Positions 2,401-13,813 of a stretch of DNA of 28,546 bases are shown piece after piece. Position 1 is the stretch's first letter. The number at the start of each line of letters is the position of its first letter. Below the pieces are notes generated by a model. That model was not told the origin of the DNA. It was given only the letters and a program-made list of their open reading frames with translations, and searched no databases. Both the position numbers and the translations under genes were made by a program. The DNA is from a virus, in IMG/VR virus record IMGVR_UViG_3300020548_000028, positions 1 to 28,546 of that record, one strand, 5' to 3'.

Positions 2401-2436
2401 CACTCAGAGTCTGGTATGTGGTGGGTAACAAAATAT

Positions 2437-2460
2437 ATTATTATTATTATTATTATTATT
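2437..2460 (+). repeat. (ATT)8 microsatellite, possible unwinding element
   Basis: Eight uninterrupted ATT units lie inside a longer AT-only run from about 2430. It abuts the repeated element at 2460-2484 and the inverted repeat at 2475-2513, in the 207-nt gap before the polymerase-like gene. AT-rich tracts beside dyads upstream of replication genes often mark origins; this is suggestive only. Confidence 0.6.
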
Positions 2461-2484
2461 ATATCATGATACTCTTATACACTT
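2460..2484 (+). repeat. 25-bp intergenic element, copy 1
   Basis: A 25-nt segment beginning TATATCATG and ending CTCTTATACACTT. It recurs at 13789-13813 with a single mismatch (A versus T at the tenth base). Both copies follow an AT-only run and lie a short distance upstream of a plus-strand gene. It contains no CpG and no open reading frame. Confidence 0.7.
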
Positions 2485-2514: not shown

Positions 2515-2537
2515 ATAATATATACAATATGTATAAC
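2515..2537 (+). promoter_or_regulatory. TATAC-N5-GTATA dyad, copy before the polymerase-like gene
   Basis: ATAATA, then TATAC (2521-2525), AATAT, GTATA (2531-2535) and AC. The 23-nt segment matches the one at 5635-5657 upstream of TerS in 21 positions, the two differences being inside the dyad spacer. It lies 42 nt before the ATG at 2580. A phage-specific promoter or operator is likely, given the same dyad before TerS and the capsid gene. Confidence 0.5.
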
Positions 2538-2579
2538 TTACTTGGAAGTGAGTAACACACAAAAAACAATACACACATT

Positions 2580-3611
2580 ATGAAAACAATCAAGATTGGA
2601 AAAGAGTTAGATTATATCCTCTCTCTACAAAAGAGGAAAGATGCCAAACATAGAATCATAAAGGTATATGATGCCCTCCTGTATAAAAATACAAAGTCAG
2701 ATAAGAAAGGATACTTTCAATGTCCATCACTATACTTATATAAGGTCTCACCTAAATACTTCAAAGTTATTGACCTACTGAAAAAACACAAGATCATAGA
2801 TTACTTATCATATAACTATGATGATAAAGATTTATTTGACATCAAAAGAAAAAAGTTCTACCACACAGAACAAGGAGTGTGTATGAGTTACAAGTTTCTT
2901 ATTGACATAGAGAATGGTTATGACTATGAAATAACAACAGACTTCTCAAAACTATATGAAGGTGAGAAATGGTATTGGAAAACAAGATACTCATTGCTAC
3001 AACTAAACTTTCCATCAGATGGTCTCCTGATAAAGAGAGATTCATTCAGTAGGAGACTACACACAAGCATAACTGGCAACATTGGTGATGGTGGATCTTA
3101 CAAAGACCTACTATCTGGTGGTGAATACTGGTCTATTGATGCAAAGACCTGTCAACCAAGATTACTTTGGTTACACCTAAAAGAGATAGGACTACAAGAT
3201 GATAAACTGAATGAGGTATTTGAGAATAACATTGACTTTTATGAATATGTAATGAAAAGAACACCATCAATAGGTGATAGAGATGATGCAAAGGAAGTAT
3301 TTACATCCTGGATAAATGGAAATGGGTATATTGATTCTGAAAAAGCAACCATAAGAGACATATTCTCAACAGCAAATGAGTTCATAAAAAAATATAAAAC
3401 AGACAACTATAAGAATGTTTGTAGGTTGTTACAATACAAAGAAGCAACCATATTCATAGATGACCTACTCAACAACATTGACTTGGAGTTCTGTCTTACA
3501 GTCCATGATTCTCTCATAGTAAAGAAAGAGGATGTAGAATATGCCCTAAACTTCTGTAAAGAAAAATACCCTGAAATGGTATTCATAGCCAAAGAAATAG
3601 CAAGGGACTAA
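2580..3611 (+). CDS. Minimal palm-domain polymerase-like replication protein (343 aa)
   Basis: The C-terminal half carries the signature motifs of family A DNA polymerases and T7-type single-subunit RNA polymerases, in order. Motif A is YWSIDAKTCQPR with D187. An O-helix-like R234-DDA-K238 (R-x3-K) is followed by F241 and an NGNGY turn. Motif C is LTVHDSLIV with H309-D310. HDS rather than HDE is typical of T7-like RNA polymerases. At 343 residues it has no room for an exonuclease domain. The N-terminal 120 residues (a YFQCPS..YL..SPKYFKVIDLLKK.KII segment followed by beta-rich sequence) resemble a winged-helix DNA-binding domain. It probably acts in replication as a polymerase, primase-polymerase or initiator. 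It lies directly downstream of an AT-rich dyad region and is followed by a GIY-YIG gene. The polymerase assignment is from motifs only; DNA versus RNA product is open. Confidence 0.6.
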   Translation: MKTIKIGKELDYILSLQKRKDAKHRIIKVYDALLYKNTKSDKKGYFQCPSLYLYKVSPKYFKVIDLLKKHKIIDYLSYNYDDKDLFDIKRKKFYHTEQGVCMSYKFLIDIENGYDYEITTDFSKLYEGEKWYWKTRYSLLQLNFPSDGLLIKRDSFSRRLHTSITGNIGDGGSYKDLLSGGEYWSIDAKTCQPRLLWLHLKEIGLQDDKLNEVFENNIDFYEYVMKRTPSIGDRDDAKEVFTSWINGNGYIDSEKATIRDIFSTANEFIKKYKTDNYKNVCRLLQYKEATIFIDDLLNNIDLEFCLTVHDSLIVKKEDVEYALNFCKEKYPEMVFIAKEIARD

Positions 3612-3658: not shown

Positions 3659-4165
3659 ATGGAATACAAGATTTATGCACTGAAAGATCCAACAGACAAC
3701 CTGATAAAGTATGTTGGAGTATCTAAGAATGTTGACATTAGATACAAACAACACTATTACTCAAAAGATGTAAGAGACAACAACCTTTGGATTGCTGACC
3801 TCAAATCAAAGAACCTAAAACCAGAACTCATTATCCTTGAAACATTGGATTCTGATGACAGAAATGTTGCATTGAATAGAGAAAGATTCTACATTGACCA
3901 ATATAAAGGAACTATTTGGAACATTGATGGAACTGGAAAGGAAAGAGGTAAGACAAAAAACAAATACACAACCATTTGCATTGATACAGAGATCAAATCA
4001 GAACTTGATAAGGTTATGATTGAAACAGGAAAGAAAATGACTTACAATGAGATTCTACAATACCTTATTGATTTCTACAATGAAGCAAATGAGGAGGATG
4101 ACTTTGTCCAGAGAATGATGGATGGAGATATGATTGATGATGGACCAGAGACATTTGACTTCTAA
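3659..4165 (+). CDS. GIY-YIG endonuclease with C-terminal ribbon-helix-helix-like domain (168 aa)
   Basis: The N-terminus is a GIY-YIG nuclease domain. A degenerate KIY (residues 4-6) and YVG (18-20) form the first strand pair, the catalytic arginine is R28 (DIRYKQH), the metal-binding glutamate is E76 (RERFYI), and a conserved asparagine is N88 (WNIDG). After a short Gly/Lys linker, residues 103-142 (TTICIDTEIKSELDKV...MTYNEILQYLID) have the strand-helix-helix pattern of a MetJ/Arc-type DNA-binding domain. The end is acidic. It could be a free-standing homing-type nuclease, a host DNA degradation enzyme or a recombination nuclease. The gene follows the polymerase-like gene by 47 nt, with an A-rich leader before the ATG. 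Confidence 0.85.
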   Translation: MEYKIYALKDPTDNLIKYVGVSKNVDIRYKQHYYSKDVRDNNLWIADLKSKNLKPELIILETLDSDDRNVALNRERFYIDQYKGTIWNIDGTGKERGKTKNKYTTICIDTEIKSELDKVMIETGKKMTYNEILQYLIDFYNEANEEDDFVQRMMDGDMIDDGPETFDF

Positions 4166-9393: not shown

Positions 9394-9656
9394 TGGTAAT
9401 GATGATAGTATTTTGGTCCTGTGTAGGTGTTCTCCTACAATGTGCTGAACCAATCATTTGGATAAAGAGAGATATGGGTTATAGAGAGGAGGAGTATGAC
9501 CAAATGACAAAGAGAAAGAGGATTGGACACAGGTTGCTATATTGTGCTATGTGTCTTACATTCTGGGTTGTTCTGATTAGCACATTTGATCCAGTAACAG
9601 CAGTAATAAGTTCAGTAGGAGCAGACATCCTACATAAAATAGTTCTAAGATTATGA
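9378..9656 (+). CDS. Small two-helix membrane protein (92 aa)
   Basis: Two hydrophobic segments are visible, residues 4-24 (MVMMIVFWSCVGVLLQCAEP region) and about 53-80 (LLYCAMCLTFWVVLIST...). A short polar loop (KRDMGYREEEYDQMTKRKR) separates them and is probably cytoplasmic by the positive-inside rule. The YCAMCLTFW motif has a CxxC-x2-W pattern seen in small phage membrane proteins of unknown function. An ATG at 9390, overlapping the previous stop as ATGA, is an alternative start. The stop overlaps the next gene's ATG (ATGA at 9653), so three genes are translationally coupled. It could be a holin-like or superinfection protein, but neither endolysin nor other lysis genes are seen here. Confidence 0.7.
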   Translation: MEKVMMVMMIVFWSCVGVLLQCAEPIIWIKRDMGYREEEYDQMTKRKRIGHRLLYCAMCLTFWVVLISTFDPVTAVISSVGADILHKIVLRL

Positions 9657-9868
9657 CAGATAATGACAAACAACTCAATCAGTTGATGATTGAACTGGAA
9701 GGTAAGGATAAGATCCTTGACCACCAAACAAGATTGCTATTCAATCTAAACAATACTTACTTTCCAGACCTTGTTGAATGGACTGTGAGTTGTCCTGCTT
9801 GTAGAACAAGAGTATATAACAGGATGAAAAAGCATTGGGAGGATAATATAAAAACAAACATTAGATAA
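9653..9868 (+). CDS. Small CxxC protein (71 aa)
   Basis: Starts with ATGA overlap on the membrane gene's stop. The N-terminal 35 residues form a predicted polar helix (KQLNQLMIELEGKDKILDHQTRLLFNL). The middle contains one CPAC pair (residues 47-50, SCPACRTRVYNRMKKHW), so a zinc site could form by dimerisation or the pair may be redox active. Not recognised. It closes the packaging operon: immediately after the stop begins the palindromic AT element that precedes the tail chaperone gene. Confidence 0.6.
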   Translation: MTDNDKQLNQLMIELEGKDKILDHQTRLLFNLNNTYFPDLVEWTVSCPACRTRVYNRMKKHWEDNIKTNIR

Positions 9869-9878
9869 AATATATTTT
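9865..9878 (+). promoter_or_regulatory. AT palindrome (AAAATATATTTT core), copy before the tail chaperone
   Basis: ATAAAATATATTTT; the 12-bp core 9867-9878 is a perfect palindrome and is identical to the cores at 17039-17050 and 21923-21934. Only 4 nt separate it from the ATG at 9883, closer than in the other two copies. It could be a phage promoter element, an operator or an mRNA leader signal. Confidence 0.45.
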
Positions 9879-9882
9879 GAGT

Positions 9883-10470
9883 ATGAAAAGTTGGAAAGAT
9901 ATAACACTTAGAAAAGCACAGAAACTTGAATCATTGCCAAAAGGATTAGACACACTTGATCTTATCATAAACCAGTTCAGTATTCTAAAAGATATGGAGA
10001 TAAATGAGGTTGAAAGATTCACACCTAATGAGTTGGTTGAAAAGGCAAATGAGTTAGAGTTCCTAAAAGAACTTCCACTTCCAAAGAAGGTAGATAAAGT
10101 CAAAGTCAATGGCAGAAAATACAAGTTGATTGATTTTACAAAGATGTCTCTTGGTCAAATGGTTGATATAGAGGAATACTACAATGAAGGTCTTGTTGAC
10201 AATGCTCACAGGATTCTTTCAGTTATGTTCTTACCAACTGAAAGAAAGTTTCCATATCTAAAAGAAACTACCATACCATATGAACCTGATGAGGTCAGAG
10301 AGAATGATATGTTAGATTGTGATATGGAGACCATTTGGGGAACACTACTTTTTTTTTATCTTGGAGAAATGAAATACACCAAAGATTTGCTGGGTTATTT
10401 AGAGGGAACAGTCCAGATGAGGAAGGAGGAACTGAACCAGTTGAAGGAGATGGTAAAAGAAAATCAATAG
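9883..10470 (+). CDS. Tail assembly chaperone, short (G-like) form (195 aa)
   Basis: Counterpart of lambda gpG/HK97 gp13: a cytoplasmic chaperone that coats the tape measure protein and recruits tail tube subunits, not part of the virion. The frame opens at a TTG (9877) but the ATG at 9883 (MKSWKDITLRKAQ) follows the AT leader and is preferred. Residues to about 158 are the common chaperone domain (LIDFTKMSLGQMVDIEEYY, ILSVMFLPTE). Translation in frame past the T9 run gives a short C-terminus (YLGEMKYTKDLLGYLEGTV...). The gene overlaps a longer -1 frame extension, the G/GT arrangement. It precedes tail completion genes, although the tape measure gene is 11 kb away. Family placement rests on the frameshift and context more than on sequence. 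Confidence 0.65.
   Translation: MKSWKDITLRKAQKLESLPKGLDTLDLIINQFSILKDMEINEVERFTPNELVEKANELEFLKELPLPKKVDKVKVNGRKYKLIDFTKMSLGQMVDIEEYYNEGLVDNAHRILSVMFLPTERKFPYLKETTIPYEPDEVRENDMLDCDMETIWGTLLFFYLGEMKYTKDLLGYLEGTVQMRKEELNQLKEMVKENQ
10350..10356 (+). other. Probable programmed -1 ribosomal frameshift site (T TTT TTT)
   Basis: The T9 run at 10349-10357 is read in the zero frame as CTT TTT TTT TAT. The heptamer T TTT TTT fits X XXY YYZ exactly, so both tRNAs re-pair after slipping back one base. The -1 frame is then open for 94 codons to 10638-10640, whereas the zero frame stops at 10470. I did not identify a downstream pseudoknot. Confidence 0.6.
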
Positions 10471-13788: not shown

Positions 13789-13813
13789 TATATCATGTTA
13801 CTCTTATACACTT
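13789..13813 (+). repeat. 25-bp intergenic element, copy 2
   Basis: Differs from 2460-2484 only at the base after ATATCATG (T instead of A). It is also preceded by an AT-only run (13771-13788). It lies 22 nt upstream of the ATG at 13836. The second arm AAGTGTATAA that makes a dyad at copy 1 is missing here, so the element itself, not the hairpin, is what the two sites share. Confidence 0.7.

Follow-up and report, generated by a model that had tools for sequence, protein, structure and literature searches.

The window, a stretch of viral DNA 28,546 nucleotides long, carries on its plus strand an open reading frame (2580-3611) for a 343-residue protein, and the question raised by this locus is whether that protein is a polymerase and, if so, of what kind and for what purpose. 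An earlier sequence-only reading saw in it D187 within SIDAKTCQPRLL, R234-x3-K238, and VHD310S, all of which are present, and took them for the ordered motifs of a palm-fingers core of family A type. When the window protein alone was compared by sequence with Pfam, PHROG, NCBIfam, and PDB, there was no match, and the PF00476 (DNA_pol_A) model scores it below detection. The features of the locus are collected in Table 1.

Table 1. Features of the polymerase locus and its upstream region (window coordinates; aa, residues of the 343-aa protein; H, helix; E, strand)
Feature	Position	Strand	Remarks
AT-rich (TAT)n tract upstream of gene	2431-2462		Same place in relatives
25-bp element TATATCATGATACTCTTATACACTT	2460-2484	+	Contains inverted iteron copy at 2475-2484
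Iteron-like copy 2, AAGTGTATAA	2504-2513	+	Second dyad arm
Iteron-like copy 3, TGTATAAC	2530-2537	+	23 bp after copy 2; same spacing in four relatives
Copy 4, AAGTGAGTAACA	2546-2557	+	Nearly invariant among most relatives
Gene for 343-aa protein, predicted winged helix plus family A palm/fingers	2580-3611	+	AF2, Foldseek, profile comparison, conservation
N-terminal winged-helix-like domain, aa 1-118	2580-2933	+	DSSP on two AF2 models; conserved family-wide
Elements of N-terminal domain			H20-36, E45-49, H50-56, H60-69, E73-77, E99-106 (DSSP)
Beta hairpin region, aa 151-162 (IKRDSFSRRLHT)	3030-3065	+	Invariant R159; equivalent of Pol I 'tGRvHTsf'
Motif A, aa 183-193, YWSIDAKTCQP	3126-3158	+	D187 catalytic; Q192 at steric-gate position (D+5)
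Fingers O-helix, R234-x3-K238 ... G247	3279-3320	+	AF2, profile comparison, conservation
Q-helix motif Q285-x2-E288	3432-3443	+	Profile comparison, conservation
Motif C, V308-H309-D310-S311	3501-3512	+	AF2, profile comparison, conservation
Second copy of 25-bp element	13789-13813	+	One position different; AT-rich flank; between tail genes

An AF2 model built from 62 sequences has a mean pLDDT of 82.7, with values >90 in most of the catalytic core. In this model D187 is in strand 183-188, R234 and K238 are on helix 234-246, and H309-D310 are at the turn of a beta hairpin (305-308/311-315), so that the predicted placement of D187, the O-helix, and HD310S is the palm/fingers layout of Pol I. A Foldseek search of the PDB gave 75 matches at E<=0.001, Bst, Taq, Klenow, and Pol theta among them, and the best 50 of the 75 are all family A DNA polymerases. 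The TM-scores, about 0.4 by query, are modest, as is expected because only the core is in common. Among viral models, the best matches are phage proteins of ~400-430 aa, including one named 'Putative DNA polymerase I [uncultured marine phage]', and virophage replication proteins are also found.

Profile comparisons place the protein more precisely. The profile of its family (see below) aligns with that of Pol I with the O-helix, Q-helix, and motif C in register (E=0.0035) and with that of divPolA2 over 178 columns that take in the hairpin, motif A, O-helix, and motif C (hhalign, E=2.6e-11); divPolA2, a phage PolA variant of barbaviruses, ICP1-like phages, and Aeromonas phages described in 2024 (PMC11348598), itself matches the Pol I profile at E=2e-4. 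A profile search of the PDB returned short segments of one DNA polymerase I and was otherwise uninformative. T7 RNAP aligns with the family profile over 20 columns only, all at motif C, which rules out kinship with T7 RNAP beyond that motif. Based on the predicted structure, the structural matches, and these profiles, we conclude that the protein is a member of the family A superfamily, that it is neither Pol I proper nor T7 RNAP, and that its closest relative is divPolA2. The proposed palm-fingers core is thus borne out by the AF2 layout, by the family A matches, and by the invariance of the catalytic residues described below. In contrast, the suggestion that HDS at motif C hints at an RNA polymerase is not sustained, given the 20-column alignment and the DNA polymerases that make up the best 50 of 75 PDB matches; HDS is also the motif C of some divPolA2 proteins.

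DSSP finds the order H-E-H-H-E-E, which is that of a winged helix, at the N terminus both in the full AF2 model and in a separate model of this part. Foldseek gave no significant match for the N-terminal part (best E, 0.43); the matches listed are mostly winged-helix regulators and other winged-helix proteins, including Rep/initiator entries. The N terminus of the family and that of divPolA2 align by hhalign over 16 columns only (E=0.018). Since the topology fits but the structural matches are not significant, the winged helix suspected earlier is likely rather than proven. Between this domain and the hairpin the AF2 model of the window protein has a single helix (130-141), where longer relatives have more sequence. 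No exonuclease domain is present, in agreement with the sequence-only reading, because the winged-helix-like N terminus and the palm/fingers core account for the whole protein. As modeled, therefore, the 343-aa protein is a minimal Pol I-type core that follows a likely winged-helix DNA-binding domain and whose thumb is small or missing. Directly 3' of its gene in the window is a GIY-YIG gene (3659-4165), and one relative, from Tenacibaculum (L124:9989-12046), is a 686-aa protein whose C-terminal extension reads like a GIY-YIG/NUMOD homing endonuclease.

IMG/VR holds near-identical relatives of the window protein and others with 87% identity. The wider family was entered through a marginal tblastn match (E=0.3) to residues 159-312 in a 636-kb phage, in an open reading frame that has GRFHTNF, DIKNSQPRLL, RAEAK, and TVHDSI. 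This match was confirmed by the relatives that the 636-kb phage protein found when it was itself the query: five further phage records, 595-735 kb in size and with E values as low as 7e-59, and a protein on a 35-kb Hymenobacter plasmid. Profile-guided scans then gave 131 confirmed family loci in IMG/VR, a small-phage clade of relatives with 36-87% identity, and 23 bacterial contigs with members, mostly from Bacteroidota but also from Chlorobiota/Ignavibacteriales and one planctomycete. In a class-level survey around the Hymenobacter genome, 22 of 295 genomes had members. When the plasmid is counted with the 23 contigs, 13 of 24 bacterial loci have nearby a gene that, as read from its sequence, is tyrosine-integrase-like. 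The family therefore spans phages of up to 735 kb, the Hymenobacter plasmid, and integrated elements of Bacteroidota, Chlorobiota, and Planctomycetota, and the window virus is a small phage of Bacteroidota-type bacteria. These mobile-element polymerases form a widespread group without an earlier family entry: none in Pfam, NCBIfam, or PDB, and weak matches only in PHROGs, for what is a large family of family A polymerases with a winged-helix-like domain. Two of the large phages (L012, at about 9728-10462, and L014, at about 9618-10277) also encode, after the family member and on the same strand, a second PolA-like protein that matches PF00476 and lies in a frame of 409-460 aa.

Conservation was counted in 112 distinct family sequences, a set obtained by repeating the count on a profile search free of any filter on D...QP or HDS. 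R159, D187, Q192, Y221, K238, E288, H309, and D310 are present in 100% of these sequences, S311 in 109/112, P193 in 109/112, and Q285 in 110/112, and 111/112 have R or K at position 234; the D...QP and HDS columns are partly favored, since the profile was built from sequences prefiltered on them, and the hairpin and motif A columns carry a partial ascertainment bias from loci fetched by peptide patterns on those motifs, while K238, E288, and HD formed no part of the patterns of the distant scans. Eight residues that do not vary in 112 sequences show that the motifs are not due to chance. The D+5 position, or steric gate, at which RNA polymerases carry Gly, is Q in 112/112 sequences, and this family-wide Q offers a direct test point for sugar selection.

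What else the small phages have for replication can be judged from their gene content. G009 (29,581 b, 123-base end overlap) and G010 (29,615 b, 55-base end overlap) are complete circular maps, since their ends overlap and a methyltransferase gene is split across them. The window (1 to 28546) is incomplete; the gap of about 6 kb between its ends, in which a portal-like gene lies, is filled by the near-identical contig G007, and joined they make a circular map whose size adds up to about 34.6 kb. When G009 and the window with the G007 gap were scanned against Pfam and PHROG, the genes found were terminase, portal, structural/packaging, methyltransferase, ParB_N, GIY-YIG, and HTH genes. No helicase, primase, SSB, or second polymerase was found in these two genomes by Pfam or among the best 25 of 92 PHROG families, so that weak PHROG matches may be hidden, and within the same scope the small genomes showed neither a known primase domain nor a recognizable OB-fold partner. 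By direct search, PF00476 and DnaB_C are absent from the small genomes. We conclude that the family A-type gene is the sole recognizable replication gene in the complete ~29.5-kb relatives.

The region upstream of the gene resembles an origin. The dyad and the AT-rich region said to adjoin the gene are both there, and the dyad arms (2475-2484 and 2504-2513) are complementary at 10/10 positions. Relatives have in common, upstream of the gene, an AT-rich tract, TATATCATnnnnCTnTT, a repeat core, and AAGTGAGYAACA. The core is specific to the genome (TGTATAA in the window, GTAGGAA in G008, TAAGAAA in G009 and G010) and each genome has it in one inverted and two direct copies. Copies 2 and 3, the direct ones, are exactly 23 bp apart in the window, G008, G009, G010, and L095; in L095 the inverted copy carries a different core. 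The GC-skew minimum of the window, which is a partial genome, is at 1635, near the array and not at it. A hairpin-bearing segment of ~150-190 bp upstream of the gene appears inverted between G009 (L150) and G010 (L151), and upstream of the relative L093:2562-2912 there are two copies of the AT-rich block with CTGTTTAGAACTTC, about 110 bp from each other. On the plasmid (L007), no iteron array was found upstream of the gene with the settings used, and a three-copy AT-rich repeat is present downstream of it; the iteron-like array is therefore shown for the small-phage clade only.

The winged helix appears to change together with the repeat core. Residues 45-77 have 0/33 differences between G009 and G010, which have the same core, versus 17% elsewhere (P=0.003), and helices 50-69 have 7/20 differences (35%) between the window and G008, which have different cores, versus 11% elsewhere (P=0.008); both are post hoc tests on few genomes, with the regions chosen after the alignment had been seen, and most other pairs are trendless.

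The full 25-bp element is present in one or two copies per genome, with the second copy of G009 at 2363. The two copies in the window are near-identical and separated by 11 kb. Both follow an AT-rich tract; the first lies upstream of the polymerase gene, and the second precedes a tail gene start by 23 bp. Chance was considered as the origin of the repeated element and is ruled out (2 matches, versus 0 in 100 shuffles). Given the second copies at 13789 and in G009, the site may serve as more than an origin.

The sequence-only reading guessed at a primase-polymerase or replication initiator, and this is the candidate function with the best support, short of proof. On balance, we lean toward an origin-binding initiator/polymerase that starts DNA synthesis, after which the host takes over; in this we infer the binding, the priming, and the use of dNTPs. 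The winged helix would bind the iterons, the AT-rich tract would open, the palm/fingers core would use dNTPs to make or extend the first DNA strand, and replication would then be taken over and completed by the host replisome with its helicase, primase, and Pol III. An initiator-polymerase of this kind would act like the primase-type TV-Pols such as CCPol, but with a site-recognition domain of its own. The priming case that we know of among A-family enzymes is CCPol, which depends on its partner MP, and this counts against the initiator reading, as do the second copies of the 25-bp element and a GC-skew minimum that lies off the array in the partial genome of the window.

In a narrower form of the proposal, which we consider possible but doubtful, the protein is an iteron-binding initiator and autoregulator whose core only extends RNA primers made by the host RNA polymerase or primase. 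Pol I extends RNA primers at ColE1-type origins, which is a precedent for such a role. The lack of any recognized primase domain or OB-fold partner in the small genomes agrees with it, as does the observation that CCPol alone only extends primers (PMC7581432). However, no primer transcript or promoter was identified, and all of the evidence is common to primer extension and to the initiator model, so that sequence does not tell them apart. We think it unlikely, somewhat more so than primer extension, that the protein is a one-protein initiator that joins an iteron-reading wing to a family A core capable of de novo priming and works without helicase, primase, or SSB partner. If this were true, a Pol I-type fold would be a self-sufficient, origin-specific primase-polymerase in phages, plasmids, and integrated elements of Bacteroidota.

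The large-phage relatives raise the alternative of an accessory repair or gap-filling polymerase, whose wing would hold DNA nonspecifically and whose repeats would be an operator or promoter unrelated to replication. DnaB_C, the mark of a DnaB-type helicase, is present in 7/8 of these phages, Pol III alpha in 2/8, and a PF00476 protein (a second PolA) in 2/8; with a helicase of their own and, in some cases, other polymerases, they need not use the family protein as replicase, and a similar argument has been made for divPolA2 (PMC11348598). Such a role is nonetheless improbable for the family, because the gene is the only recognizable replication gene in the small complete genomes, because it persists on a plasmid and in integrated elements, and because the repeat array seems to coevolve with the winged helix. 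Least probable of all is a minimal single-subunit RNA polymerase or RNA primase whose wing reads promoter-like repeats and whose RNA serves transcription or priming: although the protein shares the HDS of motif C with T7 RNAP, the 25-bp element is repeated upstream of two genes, and the authors of divPolA2 weighed an RNA polymerase role for it (PMC11348598), the short T7 RNAP alignment, the DNA polymerases that fill the best 50 of 75 PDB matches, the invariant Q in place of Gly at D+5, and a full element found only once or twice per genome, few copies for a promoter set, all speak against it.

The origin-binding initiator/polymerase thus remains our preferred reading. The gene is the likely replication gene of small phages and mobile elements that are otherwise without one, and it offers a compact system for asking whether a Pol I-type core starts DNA synthesis at a defined origin.

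The protein had also been called possibly of a little-described type. This stands insofar as there was no family entry, and it needs correction insofar as divPolA2 (PMC11348598) and TV-Pol/CCPol (PMC2579912, PMC7581432) are described neighbors. The family resembles divPolA2 in size class (~430 aa), in the lack of an exonuclease, in an active palm, in an extra N-terminal domain that replaces the thumb, and, for some divPolA2 members, in HDS at motif C. In contrast, divPolA2 has mostly E at the steric-gate position, where the window family has an invariant Q, mostly as QP; the phages in which divPolA2 was described have a regular polymerase as well, whereas the small genomes yielded no polymerase besides the family protein; and the window family has a winged-helix-like N terminus and occurs in Bacteroidota elements. 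A scan of IMG/VR for divPolA2 relatives found none. The present family thus extends divPolA2-type polymerases to another host set.

The TV-Pol family, which includes CCPol of SCCmec (PMC2579912, PMC7581432, PMC10061031), likewise consists of small mobile-element and virus polymerases related to superfamily A with a similar architecture, and its hairpin Arg, two palm Asp residues, RxxxK fingers, and lack of a nuclease are all found in the window family. CCPol-MP, a small A-family polymerase with an OB-fold partner, primes DNA at an iteron origin (PMC7581432, PMC10061031), and the nearby iteron origin is a further likeness (PMC7581432). The linkage to a D5-like helicase seen in viral TV-Pols is absent, with no helicase family in the two small genomes, and the window family has no recognized SSB partner but has a predicted winged helix fused at its N terminus. 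The thumb of TV-Pols is a two-helix coiled coil; the window protein is modeled with one helix (130-141) from the wing domain to the hairpin, a stretch that is longer in some relatives. Ma-LMM01 gp030, which we took as a phage TV-Pol from its transposase neighbor and its motifs and which is the sole TV-Pol compared by profile, aligns with the family as a single sequence at an LQ..E patch only (30 columns, E=0.12).

Compared with Pol I (Bst, Taq, and Klenow), the fold, the catalytic layout, the 'GRxHT' hairpin, RxxxK, the Q-helix Gln, and the HD motif are retained, but the family is without exonucleases, the loop between hairpin and motif A is shortened, the thumb is reduced, D+5 has changed from E to Q and motif C from HDE to HDS, and the similarity is below PF00476 detection. 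T7-like single-subunit RNA polymerases belong to the same superfamily and have HDS at motif C, but there is no profile similarity past that motif and the family has Q, not G, at D+5. With iteron-type plasmid initiators (winged-helix Rep) and PrimPol proteins the family would share a DNA-binding wing domain and the idea of an initiator plus polymerase, and, in the small-phage clade only, the position of the gene beside an AT-rich tract and phased repeats; its core, however, is a family A polymerase rather than an AEP or Rep fold, and it has no helicase domain. What is new in comparison with described polymerases is the combination of Q at D+5, HDS, a fused winged-helix-like domain, a different set of hosts, and standing as the sole recognizable replication gene in small genomes.
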